Source: Trichoderma breve (lineage: Eukaryota; Ascomycota; Sordariomycetes; Hypocreales; Hypocreaceae). Taken from it: a stretch of DNA of 64,000 nucleotides. A program made the position numbers and the translations under genes. Of this stretch, positions 10,198 through 49,571 are shown piece after piece. Under the pieces are notes generated by a model, which saw only the letters and a list, made by a program, of their open reading frames with translations, was not told where the DNA came from and ran no database searches. The stretch is taken from the NCBI RefSeq assembly GCF_028502605.1, contig NC_079237.1, positions 3,658,001 to 3,722,000 on the forward strand. Direction: 5' to 3'. The number at the start of each line of letters is the position of its first letter. Position 1 is the stretch's first letter.

Positions 10198-11457
10198 CTA
10201 TCTGTACATGTAGGTAGACGTGGACTTTTCCCCAATCAATGCGATCATCAACTCCCTGTAGTCTCCGGAGAGAGACCCATTCAAGTTATCCAGCAGCCTC
10301 ATGCCGTAAGTCTTCTTGTACGCAGCGTGAACTTCCTGGAGCCTCTCAGTGCCGCCCCAGTACAACCGAAGAGCCCTGTATATAAAGATGCTATCATCCT
10401 TTGTCGACGGTCTCAGCACATTCCACAAGCCATCCGCGTCCGATTTCCCGCGATCTGTTGCGTAATCGAGGATCTGCAGCAGGGCATCTTCCATACTACT
10501 GCCGCAGAATTTCCGTGCAATGCCATGGTCTAGTTTTCGTTGATACTTATTCTCGTAAGCGCTGCTCATGGCTCGCAGTCCGGCGTCATTGGCACTCGCA
10601 AGTATGTCGATGATGGGAGTGAGGTCGGTGGTGGGAGAACCCTCAATCAGACGCTGGATCTCTGCCACTTTAACGTCAATCTCAGTCATATCGAGGACTG
10701 CATCTTCGCCTCTGGCGCCGGAGAGGATCACGTTGTAGAGACGGAAGAGATCTTCGTCGACCTTGCTTCTGATGAGCTGGACCAAGTCCCTGCCTGGAGT
10801 ACTATTGTACTTCCTTACGATGCCGCGGATATTGGCGTTGGAACGGCAGAGGAGAACATCGTTCAGTGCCCTTTTATCTGCGTCTTCACCGGAGAGGGCT
10901 TTCTCTAGAGTATAAACGTCATGATCGAGGGGTCCCTTAAGGAGGGCCATCAGGGCGACTCGGAAGAAGCCCTGGGTTTTTTGCTCGATTTGCTCGGCTA
11001 GGTTAAGCGTGGTTTGACTGTCGTAGTCGTATGTAAACTGGTGAAGAGTTTGCGGATCCTGGAATTTGGAATCGGTCAGAACGCTGATGAAGGTACTATT
11101 ATCGCAGCCCACTCCTGTCATCGCTTCTTGAAGCTTATCAATGGCTTGAGTGATTTCGATGTTTTGACGTTCATCGTGTCCTGGAGAAGCCAGCGTCAAA
11201 TGTATATTGATTTTGGATCGTTGTAGGTCCTGGACTGGAGTGTGTCTAGACAGTTGTTGGTTCGGATTCGGGTTCAGTGGGCTCTTATGCCACTGCTGGC
11301 TTTGGTGGCCAGTTGTATGGCCAAATTGCCTGATAGGAACTCTCATGGTAAATGAAGGAATGAATTTGTTAGATGAAGAAGAAGTAGTTGCCTCGCGCTG
11401 TGAAGGGGCAAGTCTGGGAATCCAAGGCCCGGAGTACTGTAATAGCTCTCCCAGCAC
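10198..11457 (-). CDS. Annexin
   Basis: A single-exon frame of 419 residues with annexin repeats from about residue 100. Seen repeats include ITQAIDKLQEAM..GVGCDNSTFISVLTD, the GFFRVALMALL helix, and DKRALNDVLLCRSNANIRGIVRKY..GRDLVQLIRSKV, then more diverged ones at the C-terminus. Annexins bind acidic membranes with calcium through GxGT-38-[DE] loops. Here the loops are only partly kept, so calcium dependence is uncertain. The first 90 residues are low-complexity, Ser/Gln/Pro-rich; a second Met at residue 38 is an alternative start. Repeat number and length fit fungal annexins. Likely cytosolic and membrane-associated; role in the fungus unknown. Confidence 0.88.
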   Translation of the reverse strand: MLGELLQYSGPWIPRLAPSQREATTSSSSNKFIPSFTMRVPIRQFGHTTGHQSQQWHKSPLNPNPNQQLSRHTPVQDLQRSKINIHLTLASPGHDERQNIEITQAIDKLQEAMTGVGCDNSTFISVLTDSKFQDPQTLHQFTYDYDSQTTLNLAEQIEQKTQGFFRVALMALLKGPLDHDVYTLEKALSGEDADKRALNDVLLCRSNANIRGIVRKYNSTPGRDLVQLIRSKVDEDLFRLYNVILSGARGEDAVLDMTEIDVKVAEIQRLIEGSPTTDLTPIIDILASANDAGLRAMSSAYENKYQRKLDHGIARKFCGSSMEDALLQILDYATDRGKSDADGLWNVLRPSTKDDSIFIYRALRLYWGGTERLQEVHAAYKKTYGMRLLDNLNGSLSGDYRELMIALIGEKSTSTYMYR

Positions 11458-12161
11458 GGTGGAGGTCGTTAGGTTACACTTGATCTTTTTATAGACAAAA
11501 TAACGCCCAATTAAAAAGAAAACAGATAGATTACATGTACTTTGTAGACCCCCAGGGTCAGTCTTGGGCCTTTCATGGAGCAGTGTAATTTGAGTGGCGC
11601 CGCGATTTGAGTGTAGCCTCTTTGTTAGATGTAACCAAAAACTCTGAACAAACGTTTGAACAGAGCAGCTGAGCTTGTCTCAAGGCATCCAATAATGTCA
11701 TAGTGTCCACCAAAACAATGAAATTTGTTATTAGGCGCCCGTCAGCTGACGTTTATCCCTGATATTGCTGCCTTTGTTGAGAGGAATCTGGCGAACCGCA
11801 CGAACAAAGGATTTATCCAGATATAGAAAGGCTTTGCCACGCTACGGTTTCGGAAACATACGTCTTCCAGTAAAATAACACGATGGGAATGCTGTGCAAC
11901 TGGACGCAGTGTAATATTGGTTCATCGCGAGCGCTGCCTGTCGTATCGCTCGACTTCCATCATGGTGTTGTGAAAAAATGTGCTATATGCACACGCGCAT
12001 ACACAAATACATACATATATATATATATAGATTTGACGGAGCGCATCACTCATTACCATTTCCACCTGATATCCATTCAACATTCCACATACCAAGACTA
12101 CTGCCAGTAGGGACTTGATAGACTATCACCGCCATCAGCGGCCTACGCAATTTGCCCAAAT
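11458..12161. other. Divergent intergenic region
   Basis: 704 bases between the annexin and the C2H2 gene. It holds a TACATGTA palindrome at 11532-11539 and a short CATA/TATA microsatellite near 12000-12030. No coding region is seen. Confidence 0.5.
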
Positions 12162-13997
12162 ATGGACCTAGACTCGGAAAAGCCTTCACAAAGCATTTCG
12201 AATGCTTCACAGAAATGTTCGGATTTATTTGAGTCATGTATTTTGCAAAAACCAGATTCTGTGGCCGAGTTCGAGGTAACAACCAGGCTGTTTACGGCTT
12301 GGACAAATAGGTTGAGTGTGTTCAGCCAGAGTGCCAGCCTAGATGAGAGGCTACGTGCCGAGAAATATGATGAGATCCGTCAAATAGTTATGAATCTTCT
12401 AAACGCTCTAAACGTACTCCTATTTCATGGTACGCAGCTTGTTATAACGCAGTTTCTTGGGTTTGTCTTAGCTGACCTTACCTATGTATAGCACACAGAT
12501 TAGTCTCTTCATCTCAAAACGAGCATCTTGTTAAGCAAACCCTTGAAGACTTCCTACTCGGCATCCATGATGCTTTGAGAATTTTGGACAAGACCGCCGC
12601 CGCCATCCTGCTTCTAACATCCCAAGGTACGTATCGCTTGATCATGAGGACTATCGTCTTCGCAAAGAAGCATGACGACTTTCAGAGGCTTGTCAGAACC
12701 TTTTCCAAGGTAATCCTCTCTCGACACCGAGGGCTAGCACCAAATCATAAGCCCCTGGAAATCTTAGAAGACCTCATACCTACCAAGGAGAAGATTCTAG
12801 AGCAACGTCCGGAGAGCTTATTTCTAGCTCTCGTTAGGACTTCCATCGTCCGACACTTTAGAATACTATATGAGTGCGATATAAGAGACAGAGAGAAAAG
12901 GGGACTATTAACGCCAGACATGAGATCGTCGACACCGCAAGGTGCCAATTCAGCTGATGGCGATACTATCACTGGGCAGTGCAAATCTCCCCAGTCGAAT
13001 AAATCAGCACCCGGCGAGGCAAACCAGACAGCCGAACGAGACGGCGAGGCACGATCAGAGAACCAACTAACGGTGCTATCGATTGATGTGAATCGCTACA
13101 ATACGGAAATTGCTGGGATCGACTCTGCCAGTCCTACTTCTGACGAGAAATCCGCGCCCCCTATCTCTGAGGCTGGCATGATGTCATTTCCTAGGGCACC
13201 CAAAATTCCAAATGGACAGGAAAAAGGCATTTGTCCAATATGCAAGCAGGAATTCCCCGCAGAAGAGTTGCAGGGCGATAAGTGGATGTGAGTTCCCACC
13301 TGGCAGAGATCAACAATGGGAATTTTATGCTGACTTCAACAGAGTTCACGCTACCAAAGATATTAAGCCTTATGTCTGCATACATAAGGACTGCATGTCG
13401 GACATTCAGTTCTTCGAGCACCGTAGAGATTGGATTGACCATATGCATAAATTTCACATGCCTTATTGGATACTATGCCTGTACAATACATTGAGGTGGA
13501 AGTGCTCTCTGTGTTGTTCAGACTCTGCTGCGGAATTTATTTCTGAAGAAGAGGTGAAAATGAGCTTTATGGAGCATCTTGAGCAGTTGCATCCTGACAC
13601 CAAAACGGAGAAGCGGCAAAAATTGGCCAATTGGTGTGAGGTGCGTCAGCTCAGGTCCTTGAAACATTGTCCAATTTGTGGAGTTCGCCCCAAACCACGG
13701 TCTATATTACGTACGTCTCAATCAAAAGTCACGAAGGGAGATACCAGAGCTGGACCTCAAGTACTAGAGGCCGGGGAAATCAAGGACGGTTCCAATTCCG
13801 AAGCTAAGCATACCGTGAGGTTTGCTGATCCTGAATCCTCGCACGAGAACTGCCACTCAGAACCAGTAACAGATTACGAGAGAGCCGAACACTGCGTTGC
13901 TGAGCATCTAAGAGCACTAGCCCTTAATTTCTCAGCCTTTCTTATGGATGATGATGATACCGATGACCAACGACGCTCCGATGTACCACTAGATTGA
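12162..13997 (+). CDS. Fungal C2H2 zinc-finger domain protein (NLR/ankyrin-associated type), probably truncated
   Basis: Three exons, 12162-12429, 12492-13287 and 13343-13997, encode about 572 residues. Introns are GTACGC..TAG and GTGAGT..CAG, in frame. Residues 1-200 are helical and resemble the N-terminal regions of fungal proteins with helical signalling domains, without a clear family. From residue 337 comes a cysteine/histidine array: CPICKQEF, then KPYVCIHKDC, WIDHMHKFH, CSLCC, MEHLEQLH, CPICG. This layout (CxxC, then DLxPYVC..C, then HxxxxH) is common in fungal proteins that also carry ankyrin or NACHT modules. The C-terminal tail contains CVAEHLRALALNF, a motif usually found after the last finger. 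The tail is homologous to 20640-20970, and that homology runs past this gene's TGA, so the protein is probably cut short. Ligand and role unknown. Confidence 0.75.
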
Positions 13998-14760: not shown

Positions 14761-16260
14761 CTAGAGGGCACTGAGGATGCTATCCAGCGGATCTAGTATG
14801 GCCTGTGCGAAGTCTGCATCTGTTATGTTCTGGTCTCTCGATACAGAAAGGCACCATTCCACTATTCCCTGGTACGTTGCACCCATCCTCCGTCCAATAT
14901 CAGGAGTTATCTTCATCAGCTCTCTTCCCCACTCGGCCGGGTTCGTCTTATGCAAGTGATGCGCAACTTGCTTCAAAGGCTTCCACAAACCAATCTCCAG
15001 AAGCACGACCCCCAAGCTGTAAATATCGTAGGATTGAATGTATCTCGGACTCTTTGCTCCCTGCAACCTGTCTGGATGCTGGAAAACATCATTGTCCCAC
15101 ATAGATTGAACCGTTGAAAAAGCCTTGTGTCTGGTAAATGTCCCTTGCTGGTATGTTGCTGCTTCTTCCCCGCGGATCAGATCAAAACCCATGAGATACA
15201 CTTCATCATTGTCATCACGGGATAACACTTCCCCTTGGTGTGCATTCTGTGAACGGACAATCACAACGCTTGAAGAAGTGATATTCTTATGAAGAAATCT
15301 CGCGGTGTGGAGAAAAAAGACGGCTTCCGCGATTTTGTAGCTAATTTTGAAGCAGTGGTTAAGAGAATATGATATGGCGGGGAAAGGATCCAGTTCGATT
15401 GACTTTGCCAATGTCATCATCGAGAAGATGTAGTCTGGCGACACATGTGCAAACAGGAAACGATGGAGTCTTGGATCGTAGAAGTAGTATTTTACGCCCA
15501 GAAGAGAAACATCGGTGATCGCTGGATTGAGGCAGCTTAATGCAGCAGACAGCTCGCCCATTTCAGTCTGCATAGCTTCAAATTCCGGTGTTCCTACAAG
15601 AACGTCGTCGGGGACCTTTCTGCTTGAAAAGATGAGCTGTTCATCGTTATGCTGTAGAGGTAGAGTAGACACATCTCCTGCGGCTTCAATCTCATAGAGG
15701 AGATCACCCGGAGCCTCAAGCAACAGCTGACCAGCTCGAATCTCCTTGGCAGCCGTATTAAGTGCCAGGAAGCTTTGGAGCCTACTACTGGATTCGACTA
15801 CTGGAGGCGCCCCCTGGGCCTGCTCAAGGTCAGACTGAATGAGTGGTATCACTTCCTTGGGAAGGCCTAGATAGCGCACTCCGAATCTTTCCGTCCAATG
15901 GAAAATTTCCCTTTCCATTTCTTCTATGTCAGATCGTCTGGACACCCACAAGGCCATGTTGACCGTACTTCCTAGAAAGCCGTTCCTCTCCATCTTTCGA
16001 AGGCTCCGCTGCGCTTTAACTGCAAGGCAGTCGAGATAGCTGGAAGTTCGGTCCAACAATTGTTGATCATATTCAGCCAAGCCATCGTCGCCGTTATGTA
16101 ACTTTCGCGAGTGGAAGTATTCCTGGACATTTGCTAACACTCTCAAATCCCATTCTAAACGAGTCCTCAAGGACTTTGCATTGCTCGAAAAGGCGCTGCA
16201 GGCCTCTAGGAATTTAACAATGGCGCCTCCTGCAGAAAGGGTTTGGTTGAAAATGTCCAT
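14761..16260 (-). CDS. Helical-bundle N-terminus plus kinase-like (pseudokinase) domain protein
   Basis: A single exon, 499 residues. Residues 1-150 are predicted helical with a HeLo/MLKL-type look: an initial small hydrophobic helix, then amphipathic helices with Leu/Trp. Residues about 245-490 follow a protein-kinase C-lobe. FLHTARFLHKNITSSS (315-330) stands where HRDLKPxN is expected, but the catalytic Asp is replaced by Asn326. GFD (358-360) stands in place of DFG, and YDIYSLGVVLLEIG (411-424) matches the conserved DxxSLGVxLxE helix. No Gly-rich loop or VAIK motif is visible. The kinase is therefore most likely dead and regulatory. The architecture parallels MLKL and fungal HeLo-type cell-death proteins, where the N-terminal bundle permeabilises membranes; that parallel is my inference. 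No signal peptide. Confidence 0.72.
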   Translation of the reverse strand: MDIFNQTLSAGGAIVKFLEACSAFSSNAKSLRTRLEWDLRVLANVQEYFHSRKLHNGDDGLAEYDQQLLDRTSSYLDCLAVKAQRSLRKMERNGFLGSTVNMALWVSRRSDIEEMEREIFHWTERFGVRYLGLPKEVIPLIQSDLEQAQGAPPVVESSSRLQSFLALNTAAKEIRAGQLLLEAPGDLLYEIEAAGDVSTLPLQHNDEQLIFSSRKVPDDVLVGTPEFEAMQTEMGELSAALSCLNPAITDVSLLGVKYYFYDPRLHRFLFAHVSPDYIFSMMTLAKSIELDPFPAISYSLNHCFKISYKIAEAVFFLHTARFLHKNITSSSVVIVRSQNAHQGEVLSRDDNDEVYLMGFDLIRGEEAATYQQGTFTRHKAFSTVQSMWDNDVFQHPDRLQGAKSPRYIQSYDIYSLGVVLLEIGLWKPLKQVAHHLHKTNPAEWGRELMKITPDIGRRMGATYQGIVEWCLSVSRDQNITDADFAQAILDPLDSILSAL

Positions 16261-17070
16261 GGCAGCTCTCCGCTTCCTAGAAGCTGTTGTTTAATGCTTG
16301 ATCAGGTGAATGATGATAAAGATTGGTATACGGCCTTTTCTTCAATACGAAATGATGCCACTGAGATTAGAACACGCTTCTTTGTCGTTTGACAGAAAAA
16401 GTATTGTTCTTCCTGGGACGCGGGGTTACAAGCCACAGGGCAAGGAGCGCGTCTGTTGGACGTATCTCAAATAATAAAAGTATTGTTTTCCTTGATTTGA
16501 GGACGTACAGGCTGCTACTATCCGCGTTGTAAATTACTGACTCAAAGTTCGGCGACAATCTAGCCACTCAGCAGCAAGTTCGGAAGATAATACACTGCCA
16601 CGTCAATCAAGCATTGCATGGGTGTTAATAGTGCATACATGTACCCGATGAGCGTGATGAGACCGTGCTCGCCAATAGATTTGATTAGAGTGTCGGGTAA
16701 ATGTTGCAAGTATATAAACTGTGTAACGACGTGAAACCTCCCGTAGTTTTCTTGACCGCCTTGTTGCTTGGCTTTTGGGGCCCTCACCGTTGTGTAGAGA
16801 TGGAAGTTGCCTGTTTCAACTAGTTTGCTAGAGCTCACAGCTGTATCAATATGGAAGCCATTCAACTAGATCACAGCTATAATCTCAGAATATGGCAGTG
16901 GCGCATATGGAGTAGCAAGTCGGCCAAAGAGCGATTGCTTAATGAAACCTCAATAGTTGGGTAGGTAGCTACTAAACTCAAAGTGAGAATGGCAGATGAG
17001 TTTATGCGGGTAGTTATAGATAACCGAGACCACTTTATAATGCTGCCAGTGCTTGCTGTGTAGAAGATCA
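16261..17070. other. Intergenic region
   Basis: 810 bases upstream of the pseudokinase gene and downstream of the minus-strand relic. A TACATGTA palindrome is at 16636-16643. Short frames here are unconvincing. Confidence 0.45.
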
Positions 17071-17852
17071 CTATCCCTTGGGAGCCACGTAGGTAATTTG
17101 GGTACTTCTTTTGTTAGTCTCTATCATCCTCTCGTGACCCTTCGGCTCATTTCCCTTGCTATCAATCTCTTCAACTTTGTCAAAAGCGATCTCCAGTTCC
17201 TCTTCATCTTGCTTTTTGCCTTACACGCCAATCCAATTTTCGCCCTTATAGTGTAGAAGATAGGAGCAATACTTCAATCACTTGAAGAGGATCTATACTT
17301 TTTCAGCTTGGTGAGCATCGTTGTAGTCCTTCTGTGTGGATTTAAACTAGAGAGTGTCAATGACGCCGAAGTTATATTTCCGACATTGCTGCGTTTGCTT
17401 TCCACCTTACCTTCGCCCCTAATGCCTTTAAGAGTGGCAACCTTGAATTCAATATCGACATCCCCTTTAAACTCATTATCTTTAGTAGTTTTGAAATTGG
17501 TATCATGCTAGTAGTGATCGAGACGTTTCTCGCTAGGCGTGGGTTCTTTTCGGGATGGAGCCTGGCCAACATTTGGATACTAGTGATAATCTTCCCGAGC
17601 CGCTGTTGCATTGCAGCAGTGGTTTGGTTGTGTGTTTACCACCGACTCATCATTGGTTCTCGCTATCTGTGCCTAGATACTCTGCACCTTGTCACACAGG
17701 CGCGTAAATATCCTTTTGCTAAAAGGGTAATAAAAACGACTACGACTCCCAACACCAGGAATCCTCCCGCCCAAGCCAGCTCAATTATTCTTCTGATTGA
17801 GTCTTTGCTCTCCCTGATACCCTGAATCACCTAAAACGGTGTATTGTCTAGC
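17071..17852 (-). pseudogene. Relic of a single-pass membrane protein gene
   Basis: On the minus strand, stretches with strong purine-first codon bias line up in one direction. From 17830 comes a hydrophobic segment (GGFLVLGVVVVFITLL) preceded by IRESKDSIRRII, which looks like a membrane helix. Next is a hydrophilic region (SRKEPTPSEKRLDHY, then DTNFKTTKDNEFKGDVDIEF), then KDYNDAHQAEK. It ends as an acidic tail (DEEELEIAFDKVEEID) and stop TAG at 17071-17073. Several TAG codons interrupt (complement of 17831-17833, 17673-17675, 17580-17582, 17508-17510), and one frame shift separates the membrane segment from the rest. Each TAG is preceded by a pyrimidine, so some may be intron ends, but no set of good donors rescues the whole frame. 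It lies head-to-head with the DUF7580/subtilase locus. Family unrecognised. Confidence 0.4.
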
Positions 17853-17869
17853 CATTAACGCTTTTCACC

Positions 17870-19386
17870 ATGCCCAAACTCTCAAAGCTCTTTTCTGGTC
17901 TCCGGACGTCTCTCACTAATAGTACCTCAGAACTGAGGGGACATTCTCAATCAGATCTTGAATCGGCGCAAGAAGGCGCTCTTCAACCAGGTCCCCAACG
18001 TCTAGGCTACGATGATGTTATACGTGCATCGGCCAAATCATTCGCGAACATGAAATTGAATTCTCAATTGGCCAGACGCTATCACGAGGAAGTCAACGAT
18101 AAAGGTCCATCTGAGTTGTTACAACCAGAACTTTCAATCAACGACCTGTTTGAGTATAGGCTAAACGCCGGAGAGCTGTCAACACAACGGACTCGACAGT
18201 GCATAGAGGCCATGTTTACGACTCTCGCTTCACAGCTGAGCTGTTGCAACGGGGATCATATCATGCGGCTAAAATTAACAGGATTTGTGCGTCAGTGGGA
18301 TCATGAAGGGAGACCTTTCTTTGATCTGTACCTATCAAATGGAGATGATGGGGCGCGATCTTACTGGGCAGAGAGTAAATGCACCTTTACAAGGTTCGTA
18401 TGTTATTGTGCCCGTAATATGGCGTTTTGGTTGACGGATTGAATAGGAGACTAACTTATAGAGAAGAGATGGGTTGCAATGTTATCAATAATTCCATACT
18501 TGCTGGGAAGAAAGCGAGTGTTCTTCTCATAGAGCCCCCTTATCAAGATCTCGAGACGCAGAAAAACACACAGGAGAGCTTACGCCCCATACAATTTGGT
18601 ATTTCTGACGAACGCGGTTCCTCGGCTATGCCAATAACATCAGTAACAAGCGTAACAAGCCTGATAAAACAAGACGAGTCTACCTATGATATCCGACGTG
18701 TCTCGAACGCCGGGAAGTTCTCGACAGAGGATAGGGACTGGCTTTGCCTAAACTTGGCTCTGTCGCTGCTTCATATGTCTGGTCGCCTTTGGAATAGGGC
18801 GATATGGTACTCTGACAATCCCAACACGGAAAACGGGATATTCTTTCTCAGGGATCCCATAACCCAGGAGATTGTAGATAAAAGACGCCCATATATGTCA
18901 TGGCGCCTCCAAGAAGAGTCGGATATTCAAAAGCCTACCAAAAAACTACGCCATGATACCCAGCTTTTGAGCTTCGCTAGGCTGCTGATTGAGATACACA
19001 AATGGGAAAGGCTTCATCTTACGCCCGAGCCTGAGTCTGAAGAAGAACTCCGCTCCCGTCTCCTGGGGTATATCGATGTCAACTTCAATTCGGAGCGGGA
19101 ATTGGAATTCATTTCCGCTCTGAGAGGTTGCCTGGTTCATGCTGGGTACGTCGAACCTGGTGCGGAGAACAGATCGGAACGACTTCAGGCTTATATTTTC
19201 GAAAACATCGTGAAACCATTGCATAGTTATCTTGGCAATCCCCCATTGCCAAAATCGACATGGGAGGCAATGCCCTCGTATTATCAGGCTGTCTTGGACG
19301 GATTAAATTATCCAAATCACTTCACCTCGTTACACGACGCATTTATTTACAGCGGAAAACATGAAGAAAAAAGATCAGTCTTATAG
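17870..19386 (+). CDS. DUF7580-like domain, N-terminal part of a subtilase locus
   Basis: Exon 1 is 17870-18393; the intron 18394-18461 has a GTTCGT donor, a CTAAC branch site and a TAG acceptor; exon 2 starts at 18462. The reading frame runs to TAG 19384. Residues give a helical region, then RDWLCLNLALSLLHMSGRLW and later FARLLIEIHKWE, the pattern of the fungal DUF7580 domain that often precedes a peptidase S8 domain. Directly downstream lies the catalytic Asp of a subtilase, in the same frame. Removing 19329-19442 (multiple of three, weak GTTACA donor, good branch region) would join FTS to LHEKKFW and fuse the two parts. I consider it one locus with 19443-22834. If unspliced, the product is about 480 residues on its own. 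Confidence 0.65.
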
Positions 19387-19442
19387 TTGTCAATCCCCTC
19401 ATTGAATAAAAATTTAATGTAGAATTACTGATACTTAGTTAG

Positions 19443-22400
19443 TCTACACGAGAAGAAATTTTGGAAAGACATGCAGATATTCACTGAGAAATACATCAGT
19501 CCCCTGGCACCCTCAGATGATGTCAAACCATGGCCTGGACAGAAAGTCCGGGTAGCAATTATTGATACTGGTGTCAGAAAGGAAGACGCAGAGATCGCGG
19601 CAGCAGAGGTTACTCAACGTATTCGAGGCTATCGGAATTTCACATCTTCGGATCTTAACGACTGAAGATAAGGCCAAACACGGGACTATGGTCGCCCGCC
19701 TCTTTCTTACTGTAGCACCGCAAGCTGAGCTCTACATTGCAAAGGTAGCAGATAAGCAGGAAATGCTAGACAATCAGTTACATCGCATTACTGAGGTATG
19801 ACTCCGTGCCCTTTATTTTATGTCAAGGATTCCCAAGTTCAGCGAGCCTGCAAGTGGCTGTAAGCACAAAACAAACAGCATGGCGATGTATCGGTGGAAT
19901 AATGGGAAAATGCTGGCTATTTATGAACAGCCAATTCTCAAATCCCTTCTGGAAATTTTGCTAATTAAAAAGCAGGCTATAAAATGGGCCGTACTAGAGT
20001 GTGATGTTGATATTATCTCAATGTCTCTACTACTCCCTAGGGAGCATTCTGGTATTGATAAAGAGCTCACTGAGACACTTTCACCTTCGTCCCAGGATGC
20101 AAAGCGGAAGCTTGTCTTCGCTGCCGCTGGGAACTTTGGGCTTTTTAAACAACGAGCATTTCCGGCCAGAAAAGAAGGAGTCATCGCCGTTCATGCCGCA
20201 GATGGGAGCGGCGATGAGCCGAGGTTCGTTCCGAACCCCGAGAGTAAACCAGATCCCGAGAGTGAACTAAATCTCTCGACTCTTGGCGAAAATATCAAGA
20301 TGCGATGGCCGGATTCCGACAACCCTGGTGAAATGAAAGACATCTACATATCTGGCTCGTCATACGCAACACCAATTGCAGCCGGGATTGCTGCAAATGT
20401 TCTTGAATTTGCGCGGCATAGGTTGAAAATGAATGAGTGGATGAAAGACGAGATTTACTCGCATCATGGTATGGCGAAGATTCTGAAGGCAATGTCTTGT
20501 CGTAGGGGAGGGTGTGACTTCGTGCATCCGTTGGCTTTTTGGGAACGCGCGTTTCACGGTGGCATTTGGGAGACGCAGATGTTACCGCACGATAACCCCT
20601 TGAACTCTATACTTTTTGATCAACCATGGGCTATCTCACTCGAGCCCCAGTCAGATTTTACGAAGGGGGATATCAGGGCTGGAACTGGGGGTCTAAGGAC
20701 CGGGGCAACCAAGCGTACACCTAAAGTGGATATGATAACGGATGACGAATACGAAGCAGAGACTTCATCGTCAAACCCGTCGAACTTGTGCTCGACCCAA
20801 GCAACAGAGGACTACAGAGCCGAAAATTGCATTGCCAAGCACCCAAGAGAACTACCCCTCCATGTTGCCTTTCGTATAACTGATGATGATGATCACCAAC
20901 AGGGCTGCGATGTACCACCAAGTCGATGCTCAGACCGTGATCGGTTCGAACACGAAGATCTTCCAAAATTAGGCTTAGAAGAACTTGAATATTTTGAGGT
21001 CAAAACCACCGCCGAGCTTCCCTTCGAGATCCCCAAGAGTTCACAATATGAAAGACCAACTATACCAACTATCGTGCCTGTTAAGGCAAAATCTCAAAAT
21101 ACAAGGCGTCAATTCGTTATGGAAAAATTTAATCTTGAGTCAGAGCTCGGAGAAGGTGCAGATGAGAGAATGAAAAGACTTTGCCTTAAAGAAGCTATGA
21201 CACTCTGGCATGCCCGTCACCAGCATGTTATTGAAGTTGCCATGGCATTTACCTTTGAAGGCGACGATACTGATGACGTGGAAGGGCCATATTTTGGTAT
21301 CATCATGGAACTTGCTGAACAGGGTGACATTAGCAGGCATCTCGCATGCCAAAGACCGCCTGCTGAAAGGGCAAAGATCTCAACGTGGTTTGCATGTCTT
21401 ACAAATGCTATAGCCTATATCCATAGCATTGGAATTAGGCGCCGAGACATCAAACCAGGCAATATTCTTCTGAAAAAAGATGGAAGTGTCAAGCTCGCCG
21501 ATTTTGGAATCTCCAAGATGCGCCTTGGGAGAACATCGTCAACGACCACACCGGAGGGCCCCAGAGCCAACACACCGAGATATGCTGCACCTGAGGTTGG
21601 CGAGGGAGGAACTCGCGGTCGTCAAGCTGATATCTTCGCTTTGGGAGCAGTCTTTCTCGAGATGCTAATCGCGCATTCGTTTAAGCATCTCCGTCCGCAG
21701 TTGTCAGAAAAACTTAAGCCAAGCAGACTTGGTGCACGTTTCGGCCGTGATGTCTCAGGTCCAGCATACGCTCCTTCTTTACGTAAGATACACGATTGGA
21801 TCAATGAAATACAAGCAGATCTGACATGTGGCGAGGAACATTGGCATCGCACTATTCTCAGCCTTTGCCTCAGAATGACGAGCGAAATTAGAGAGGCGCG
21901 CCCATCAGCTGAGGAAGTGTACTCCATTATATCGGGATCAGAATCATTAAAAAACGAAGCACACGAAGCAGGCTCAAGTTGCAACTGTGATGTGGCTAGT
22001 GTCCAGACAGAGAATCAAAAGTTGATCGAGGCTTGCCAGAGGCTGGATGGGTATGATGAAGTGGTATCCCTTCTCGAAAATGAAAACAACTTGCAAACCA
22101 AAGGGGCGATACAACAGGCAGCGTCACATGGCCGCTTGAGCGTTGTGCAACAATTTCTTGCTCGAGGAGCAGATGTCAATCAGCTTGATTACTGTAACCA
22201 GACAGCGCTCCATTGCGCAGCTGCGTGTGGACATGCTGATGTCGCCAAGCTCCTCCTTGAACACGGTGCGAAGATTGACATCAAGGATGAAGAAGAACAA
22301 CTTCCGCTTCACTGTGCATCTGGCCAAGGACAACTTGAGGTGGTCGAGACGCTTTTGGCGCATGATATAACCGGCGCTACCTCGTTGAGTACAGATTGTT

Positions 22401-22834
22401 ATGAGCAGATGCCGCTTCACTGCGCGGCTAAACGAGGTTTTACGAACGTCGTACGTTTTCTGATTGGTAGAATGAACAACAACAGCAGTAACGACGATGC
22501 AGTCGTGAAGACTGACGCCCGACAACGGACGGCTCTTCACCTAGCAGCTGGATATGGATCGGAAGCGGTGGTACGCCTGCTTTTAGACAAGGTCACTGAT
22601 AAAGGCTTCGTCGATTCTCTTGATGAGATCGGGATGACTGCACTTCACTGGGCCACTATTGGAAGGCAGCGCAATGGCAGTTATACCAAAGTTATGGAAG
22701 TGTTGCTGGAAAGAGGCGCGGATGTGAATATCCGGGGTGGTGCAGGTTATAAGACGGCGATTGATCATGCACGCGATAATCGAGATGAGGAACGAATTGC
22801 TGTCTTGTTGCGTGCCGATAAAATAGCACGATGA
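19443..22834 (+). pseudogene. Subtilisin-like (S8) protease - protein kinase - ankyrin repeat protein, frameshifted
   Basis: The S8 triad is complete: Asp in VAIIDTGV (codon 19564), His in KHGTMV (19679), Ser in SGSSYATP (20360). The Asp part and the His part are in different frames: a single extra T at 19663 makes TGA; skipping it gives NDEDKAKHGT, the expected spacing. An intron (19796-19975, GTATGA donor, CTAAT branch, CAG) then joins TE to AIKWAV. After the protease comes a tail with CIAKHPRELPLHV and DDDD, a kinase domain (RRDIKPGN near 21440, DFG at 21500, YAAPEV), and about six ankyrin repeats to the stop at 22834. The kinase has RRD instead of HRD and no visible Gly-rich loop. No stop separates these modules. 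The fusion of protease, kinase and ankyrins suggests a sensor/effector in self-recognition or immunity; the frameshift may inactivate it. Confidence 0.7.
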
Positions 22835-48338: not shown

Positions 48339-48755
48339 GAAGAGGAGGAATAGCTACTACAGCGACGCGGAATGTGTAGAATATACTTAGATGCTAAAAT
48401 ACGAATATTTTCTTTATGAAGAATATGCATGGATCAATAGACTGTGACAGTACGAGGCTTTACAACTCGACTCGGCAATGCAGGAAGAATTGATCCGACG
48501 AACGATAAAAGATTGCAACAATCCTCGAGTACGAATCAAGATGCTAGAATGTCAAGCGTATGAAACACTTCTGTCTGTATTGTTTTGCTAATGCGGAACT
48601 TTTGCGACGCGGAGAAATTTGGAGTAAGTGAGTCACTCGGTAAAGTTATTGACATATACAAATGCCATCTCTTCTGCAAGACTATCGAACACGGCTCACA
48701 TTCATCACCATCACATCCTCACAGTAAATAGTACTAAGTCGTACTCTCATCCATC
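48339..48755. other. Intergenic region
   Basis: 417 bases: 3' flank of the monooxygenase and promoter of the acetyltransferase. Nothing else is seen. Confidence 0.4.
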
Positions 48756-49571
48756 ATGTCCAGCGACTCCAACTTCGCCACAATAGTCACTCCATCTCAG
48801 CTTACCACCTCATTCAAACATCTCTTTTCTAACATTCCCTCATCCGATCCAACTATTCTCGTACATTCCTCTCTTCGATCCGTCGGCTTCATCCCTGGGT
48901 TCTCTCCTTCAGTCATCCAGTCTCTTCTCTCTGCCCTCGGTCCTTCTGGCACCATCGTTGTTCCAACTCATACAGGTGACAACTCGGATCCCGCTGCGTG
49001 GCAGGCGCCCCCAGTGCCAGAATCATGGTGGCAGCCAATTAGAGACTCTATACCAGCGTTTGATCCAGCCACAACTATCACCAGAGTCGTTGGTGTAGTT
49101 CCTGAGACACTGCGAACATGGCCTGGCGCACTACGTTCAGCTCACCCACAGACATCCTTTGCGGCGTTAGGTCCCAAAGCAGAGCGCATTACAGAGGGAC
49201 ATGCACCGAGTTGCCGCTTAGGTGAATCAAGTCCACTGGCCAAACTTGAAGCCGTGGGCGCTTGGGTTTTGCTCCTCGGGGTTGGTTGGGACAAATGTAC
49301 AGCTTTCCATCTCGCCGAATATCGTATCCAGAATCCTCGTCTGGAAGACAACTCATTTGCCATAAATATAGACGGCCAACGGCAGTGGGTTACAGTGCAA
49401 GACGTGGCTATCACTGATGAAGATTTTGAGCGACTCGGGGCTGATTTTGAGAGAGATTGCAAGGTCATACATGGAACTGTTGGAGCAGCTGACTGCCGGC
49501 TGTTTTCTTTGCGAGAAGCAGTCGAGTATGCAACAAGATGGATGGATAGGAATAGAAAGAAACAAGATTGA
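48756..49571 (+). CDS. AAC(3)-like N-acetyltransferase (antibiotic_NAT family)
   Basis: A single exon of 271 residues covering the whole aminoglycoside 3-N-acetyltransferase family fold. Seen are ILVHSSLRSVGFI, ALGPSGTIVVPTHTGDNSDPAAW, TITRVVGVVPETLRTWPGALRSAHPQTSFAALGPKA, and SPLAKLEAVGAWVLLLGVGWDKCTAFHLAE. The histidine and glycine positions of the catalytic cleft are kept. The family transfers acetyl from acetyl-CoA to amino groups. Whether this fungal protein acts on aminoglycosides or on another amine is unknown, and resistance should not be assumed. No intron; it could be of bacterial ancestry, but that needs a tree. Confidence 0.88.
   Translation: MSSDSNFATIVTPSQLTTSFKHLFSNIPSSDPTILVHSSLRSVGFIPGFSPSVIQSLLSALGPSGTIVVPTHTGDNSDPAAWQAPPVPESWWQPIRDSIPAFDPATTITRVVGVVPETLRTWPGALRSAHPQTSFAALGPKAERITEGHAPSCRLGESSPLAKLEAVGAWVLLLGVGWDKCTAFHLAEYRIQNPRLEDNSFAINIDGQRQWVTVQDVAITDEDFERLGADFERDCKVIHGTVGAADCRLFSLREAVEYATRWMDRNRKKQD

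Follow-up and report, generated by a model that had tools for sequence, protein, structure and literature searches.

The window analyzed here, a 64 kb stretch of the Trichoderma breve genome (38.5 Mb in nine contigs; all family counts given for this genome are lower bounds), contains a cluster of three genes: a C2H2-like gene on the plus strand, P1 on the minus strand, which encodes a protein with a helical head and a pseudokinase, and P2 on the plus strand, in which DUF7580, an S8 protease, a kinase, and ankyrin repeats follow one another (Table 1). P1 lies in the middle, upstream of P2 and head-to-head with it, and its start is ∼1.6 kb from the P2 start codon (17870), as a first-pass annotation of this DNA had reported. 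That annotation had proposed that P1 and P2 form a pair of protease and HeLo/MLKL-like executioner, an interpretation that is partly supported by the present analysis. We read the locus as likely a protease cluster of HET-Q type whose gasdermin has probably been replaced by an MLKL-like pseudokinase.

In Podospora, the S8 protease HET-Q2 cuts the neighboring HET-Q1. RIPK3 phosphorylates MLKL, releasing its helical killer bundle. For fungi more generally, one review puts the share of gasdermin genes that lie in a cluster with an S8 protease at ∼63%, notes that the clustered proteases often bear ankyrin, TPR, or WD40 repeats, and discusses them as gasdermin activators (PMC10197012). Another states that fusions of protease domains to kinase-like domains can occur, places some HELL domains within kinase or pseudokinase proteins, and describes death pathways of this sort as often being two- or three-gene clusters (PMC12881547). 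The HeLo effectors that have been described pair with NLRs through amyloid motifs (PMC9815663, PMC10197012). Among the titles and abstract openings listed from the open-access literature, none names an S8 cluster with a HeLo-type pseudokinase executioner, and no paper on DUF7580 was found.

DUF7580 adjoins S8 at six places in the T. breve genome, one of them in the window (21 DUF7580 and 43 S8 matches listed). At each of the five other loci, a gasdermin-like frame lies 178–317 bases from the S8 end, and a relative of the window's C2H2-like gene is close by (tblastn E 4e-11 to 4e-4); the relative at C6 carries ankyrin repeats, and the one at C7 carries both ankyrin and WD40 repeats. The gasdermin-like frame at C5 matches RCD-1-2 (solved structure 8jyz, E 7e-5). 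At C1, the search with exon 1 gave no gasdermin, and exon 2 matches the other gasdermin-like genes. The probability that a gasdermin lies within 1 kb of one protease locus by chance is ∼0.002. No gasdermin was detected in the window, either by tblastn or by a hidden Markov model (HMM) built from three sequences and applied unfiltered to 1326 frames (best E 1.9), although this HMM recovers gasdermins outside its seed at C1 (E 8.9e-31) and C7 (E 4.5e-12). Since a gasdermin stands beside the protease at all five other loci and P1 is found here instead, P1 is likely a substitute executioner. The locus in the window is also the sole one of the six with a kinase after S8 in the same frame; the gasdermins begin so close to the S8 end at the other five that there is no room for a kinase.

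The genome has at least nine gasdermin-like genes. Further examples occur at C3 3.989 Mb (with WD40-like repeats adjacent, recognized by eye), C2 0.256 Mb, and C7 0.810 Mb (with an S8 match adjacent). At C6 ∼1.411–1.413 Mb, a DUF7580 frame (E 2.8e-30) is directly followed by a gasdermin-like frame on the same strand, with no listed S8 match nearby, which is possibly a DUF7580-gasdermin pair or fusion.

P1 is a 499-codon open frame (14764–16260, minus strand; stop codon at 14761–14763), and the helical N-terminus and kinase fold that had been read from it are borne out by the predicted model (mean predicted local distance difference test score 76.3), in which long helices at residues 3–21, 26–55, 63–91, and 98–130 are followed by shorter ones and then by the kinase fold. 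The public T. breve model of this protein (P0002) differs from the sequence, being 450 amino acids long with pieces missing. The absence of HRD (with Asn in its place) and DFG, also remarked upon earlier, proves to be family-wide, and the kinase catalytic residues are lost throughout the P1 family, whose relatives are found in many fungi: among 52 aligned members, the Asp of HRD is replaced by Asn (49) or Ser (3), the DFG region has Met in 46, Gly in 48, and Phe in 47, and the putative beta-3 Lys position (214, our own assignment) holds Arg in 48 members and Lys in 2. Against DUF7580 (PF24476), P1 scores 18.8 bits, under the curated cut-off of 27, and 38/52 family members match at E ≤ 0.1. Profile comparison of the P1 pseudokinase with the S8-type DUF7580 gives a match (93.5%, E 2.2e-7, score 59; maximum of 50 shuffles 23), so the protease and the candidate executioner carry homologous dead-kinase modules. 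By the same method, the S8-type DUF7580 does not match the kinase of P2 itself (0.2%), and no match was obtained between the P1 head and the N-terminal region of the S8 proteins. For the P1 kinase region, MLKL has a best E of 5.5e-4, below EIF2AK1, EIF2AK3, TYK2, and IRAK4, which indicates no MLKL-specific relation.

The three other matches to P1 in the genome all carry HeLo together with DUF7580 (HeLo E 1.7e-5, 7e-34, and 8e-10). The full-length P1 profile aligns from residue 1 with a set of 16 HeLo-DUF7580-type proteins (13/16 match HeLo at E ≤ 1) with an E of 1.2e-52, an alignment in which the kinase part dominates. The P1 head alone, compared with 15 rows of this set, gives 86% (E 5.1e-6, score 40.8), above the controls of 100 column shuffles (maximum 15.6), the reversed profile (13.9), and the head against the kinase part (23.8). 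It also matches the nine rows outside the HeLo-only subset (89%; these rows include P0108, which has a HeLo label and a short N-terminus, and P0097 was dropped as too short), and those nine in turn match the HeLo-only subset (97.7%); controls in this comparison scored 8.9–14.3. The first helix of the head is hydrophobic, with many small residues, and its sequence is conserved, although the most hydrophobic 19-mer of the window's P1 lies outside it. Taken with the weaker results considered below, these comparisons argue for remote HeLo-type homology of mixed strength, and we treat the head as a divergent HeLo-superfamily candidate rather than a member.

The N-terminal DUF7580 of P2, which scores 28.3 and 108 bits in exons 1 and 2, and the C2H2-like gene had both been missed in the first-pass annotation. 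The kinase and ankyrin repeats that it reported are confirmed by Pfam matches in exon 3 (Pkinase, 5e-28; ankyrin, 3e-51), where Peptidase_S8 also matches (E 2.6e-11) over its C-terminal half. The complete S8 triad that it reported, by contrast, is not confirmed: the Asp (∼19552) and HGT (∼19679) motifs lie in different frames. Because T. simmonsii P0126 and similar relatives align collinearly with P2, the frame shift can be placed between these two motifs. At the other DUF7580-S8 loci of the genome, Asp and His share one frame with no stop between them (5/5). Splicing at either of two GT-AG pairs (49 or 64 nt apart) could formally restore a single P2 frame, but would delete residues conserved in relatives. 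The public T. breve model of P2 (P0121) differs from the sequence and starts just after the S8 HGT. In the P2 kinase, Glu occupies the first Lys of MKK and Arg the His of HRD; both residues are kept in P0122, P0123, and P0125, and the kinase of P0124 has no Lys at this position either and reads NFG.

P2 shares a linker with the C2H2-like gene (34% over 106 columns, E 6e-11 in a one-to-one comparison; 70% in DNA). The latter has no Pfam match over the cut-off, and its label rests on a Cys/His pattern recognized by eye, as do the following C2H2-like assignments. The kinase-ankyrin module of P2 recurs in T. asperellum P0123; in the Logan protein P0124, which joins a C2H2-like part to a kinase and ankyrins and lacks S8; and in T. 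asperellum P0125, which joins a C2H2-like part and the module to a fungal fucose-specific lectin, also without S8. In the T. harzianum gene model P0128, DUF7580-S8 is joined to a C2H2-like protein, although these may be two merged genes. Given the shared linker and the shuffled modules, P2 has the appearance of a protease to which the sensor end of its C2H2-like partner was fused.

Our preferred reading, to which we assign a probability of roughly 0.4, is that P1 acts as a membrane-killing executioner activated by P2, standing in for the gasdermin that accompanies DUF7580-S8 at the five other loci. Sensing of the trigger would fall to the ankyrin and C2H2-like parts; the S8 protease would then cut P1, by analogy with HET-Q2 and HET-Q1, in the weakly modeled linker after the head (residues ∼128–150); and the released head would insert its first helix into the plasma membrane, killing the cell. 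The DUF7580 fold common to both proteins could be the surface on which protease and executioner dock. As in HET-Q1/HET-Q2 and the Q2-like clusters, an S8 protease with sensor-type repeats stands beside a candidate membrane executioner, and the five gasdermin-bearing loci in the same genome share the likeness to HET-Q1/HET-Q2. The cluster in the window differs from that pair in having no detectable gasdermin, in its candidate executioner, which is a helical-bundle pseudokinase, and in a protease with a fused kinase and a broken frame.

Several observations weigh against this reading, the first of which concern the head. None of the 52 P1 family members matches Pfam HeLo (PF14479) at E ≤ 0.1, and comparison of the head with the six HeLo-only rows is weak (18.6%, E 0.0013, score 27.0; maximum of 60 shuffles 18.8). 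Whole-model structure searches were filled by kinases, and the head was consequently modeled alone; its search placed MLKL and plant CC domains alongside unrelated bundles whose Z was as high or higher, and the matches listed do not include HET-S. The helical-bundle similarity expected by the first-pass annotation holds as remote HeLo-type homology by profile, and the structure matches are mixed. P2, moreover, with its broken S8 frame and the residues lost from its kinase, is probably decayed or inactivated in the T. breve strain, allowing for a possible sequencing error in the frame, and P1 would then be an executioner without a working trigger. The positions also disagree: P1 lies 1.6 kb upstream of P2, the gasdermins 0.2–0.3 kb downstream of the S8 end, so that P1 belongs to the same cluster but does not take the gasdermins' place in it. 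The 43 S8 matches listed for the genome include none close to any of the three HeLo-DUF7580 paralogues, and one neighbor such as P1 can arise by chance, with a probability of 0.65% by a rough, after-the-fact estimate.

Linkage in other assemblies was assessed indirectly, by comparing the contig sizes of 120 listed P1 relatives with those of 50 listed S8 relatives (the first 49 of 114 rows and one further), each relative being a 90% cluster represented by one contig. Apart from the T. breve contig itself, only one contig size is common to both, which again counts against the pairing of P1 with P2: P0001 (a P1 relative, 96%) and P0122 (a relative of P2 exon 3, 71%) are on Logan contigs of equal size, 47,086 bases, and are very likely on the same contig for that reason. 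No relative turned up when viral contigs were scanned. The linkage that had been anticipated in related genomes is thus probably kept in a second assembly and is seen nowhere else among the listed relatives; neither of the findings that the first-pass annotation named as refuting it, a lack of helical-bundle similarity and a lack of linkage in any related genome, was obtained. Between the window and this second assembly, P2 identity is 241/275 (88%) in the ankyrin repeats, 229/277 (83%) in the kinase, 127/193 (66%) in S8, and 60/123 (49%) in the linker; for the S8 piece, the second strain is 69% identical to T. simmonsii and 63% to the window, and the window is 75% identical to T. simmonsii. 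Such uneven divergence, in the one pair compared, would fit recognition-type selection or exchange.

A rival reading, only slightly less probable than the preferred one, is that P1 and P2 are neighbors by accident, P1 being an independent HeLo-like pseudokinase and P2 a decaying protease gene that has lost its gasdermin. The broken appearance of P2, the wide distribution of the P1 family, for which the contig comparison shows no S8 linkage elsewhere, and the location of P1 on the opposite side of P2 from the gasdermin position all agree with it. An accidental arrangement fits less well with linkage that is apparently retained in a second assembly despite a strongly diverged P2, with a DUF7580 fold common to P1 and the protease, and with the placement of P1 between the two other cluster genes.

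A more specific form of the executioner reading, which we regard as less likely than not, holds that the gasdermin has been exchanged for an MLKL-type killer in which a dead kinase bears a HeLo-like bundle; this killer would dock via the pseudokinase fold of DUF7580 that it shares with the protease, and would be triggered by the protease or by its fused kinase. P1 resembles MLKL and plant MLKLs in its predicted N-terminal helical bundle, short helices, and C-terminal pseudokinase, and AtMLKL3 appears at rank 8 in a Foldseek search with whole P1, with a loose fit (template modeling score 0.35, root-mean-square deviation 16.1). It differs in that its kinase similarity is not MLKL-specific, its bundle match stands among unrelated bundles, and a RIPK3-type partner is only hypothetical. 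It is tied to the fungal HeLo/HELL proteins, some of which are joined to kinase or pseudokinase domains, by its nearest paralogues in the genome, which are HeLo + DUF7580; it departs from them in the Pfam result given above and in a candidate partner that is an S8 protease and not an NLR. If this exchange did occur, one locus would combine the logic of pyroptosis (a protease trigger) with that of necroptosis (kinase/pseudokinase and a helical-bundle killer), and the S8 sensor protease would be a general trigger with an exchangeable executioner. Proteolysis would become a way of activating MLKL-like proteins, a fungus would offer a test of how kinase-pseudokinase death switches arose, and the five gasdermin clusters of the same genome would serve as ready-made controls.

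It is unlikely that the kinase itself is the switch, with P2 phosphorylating the P1 pseudokinase and freeing the helical head as RIPK3 does with MLKL. That only P2 has an in-frame kinase after S8, that MKK, HRD, and DFG are kept in the P2 of the second assembly, and that P1 residues 363–384, the expected activation-loop site, are disordered in the predicted model would all suit this mechanism. The kinase of the window's P2, however, lacks the Lys and the HRD His, and the presence of the kinase-ankyrin module on C2H2-like proteins without S8 (P0125 and P0124) implies that the module is not specific to P1. Least probable by far is that P1 is a decoy or inhibitor that regulates the protease through its DUF7580-like pseudokinase, since the homology of the two modules and the remoteness of the HeLo assignment would allow this, but the paralogues have a clear HeLo domain and the first helix of the head has the conserved character described above, even with the most hydrophobic 19-mer elsewhere.

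Table 1. Features of the P1–P2 cluster in the window, with the gasdermin-bearing loci of the same genome.
Feature	Position	Strand	Basis
P1, 499 amino acids, single exon; helical head and pseudokinase	14761..16260 (stop included)	-	Open frame
Head of P1 (residues 1-130), four helices predicted; divergent candidate for the HeLo superfamily	15871..16260	-	Models and profile comparison
Pseudokinase of P1 (residues 200-499), a homologue of DUF7580; HRD replaced by HKN, DFG by MGF	14764..15663	-	
P2 gene, coding in order for DUF7580, S8, linker, kinase, and ankyrin repeats; reading frame interrupted between the Asp and His motifs of S8	17870..22834	+	
P2 exon 1, start of DUF7580	17870..18393	+	Start codon and intron (end 18446 or 18461) placed by eye
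P2 exon 2, bulk of DUF7580	18462..19383	+	E 9.9e-31
S8 Asp motif and His motif (HGT), in different reading frames	19552..19681	+	
P2 intron separating S8 His and Ser parts	19796..19975	+	Junction matches protein P0121
S8 C-terminal half; catalytic Ser motif GSSYATP, Ser codon at 20360	19976..20605	+	
Linker segment common to P2 and the C2H2-like gene	20621..20917	+	
P2 kinase domain; DFG kept, Glu at first Lys of MKK, RRD for HRD	21062..21916	+	
P2 ankyrin repeats	22100..22816	+	
C2H2-like gene; family also at the other five DUF7580-S8 loci	12162..13997	+	Zinc-finger pattern by eye
Gasdermin-bearing DUF7580-S8 loci	C5 1.04 Mb; C1 6.93 Mb; C6 0.85 Mb; C3 0.10 Mb (tail-to-tail); C7 2.89 Mb (same strand)		

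Two further frames were observed in the window. A 493-amino-acid annexin-repeat frame (10201–11679, minus strand) lies just upstream of the C2H2-like gene, and a protein of the aminoglycoside N-acetyltransferase family (Antibiotic_NAT, E 5e-90) is encoded at 48738–49568 on the plus strand of this fungal genome.

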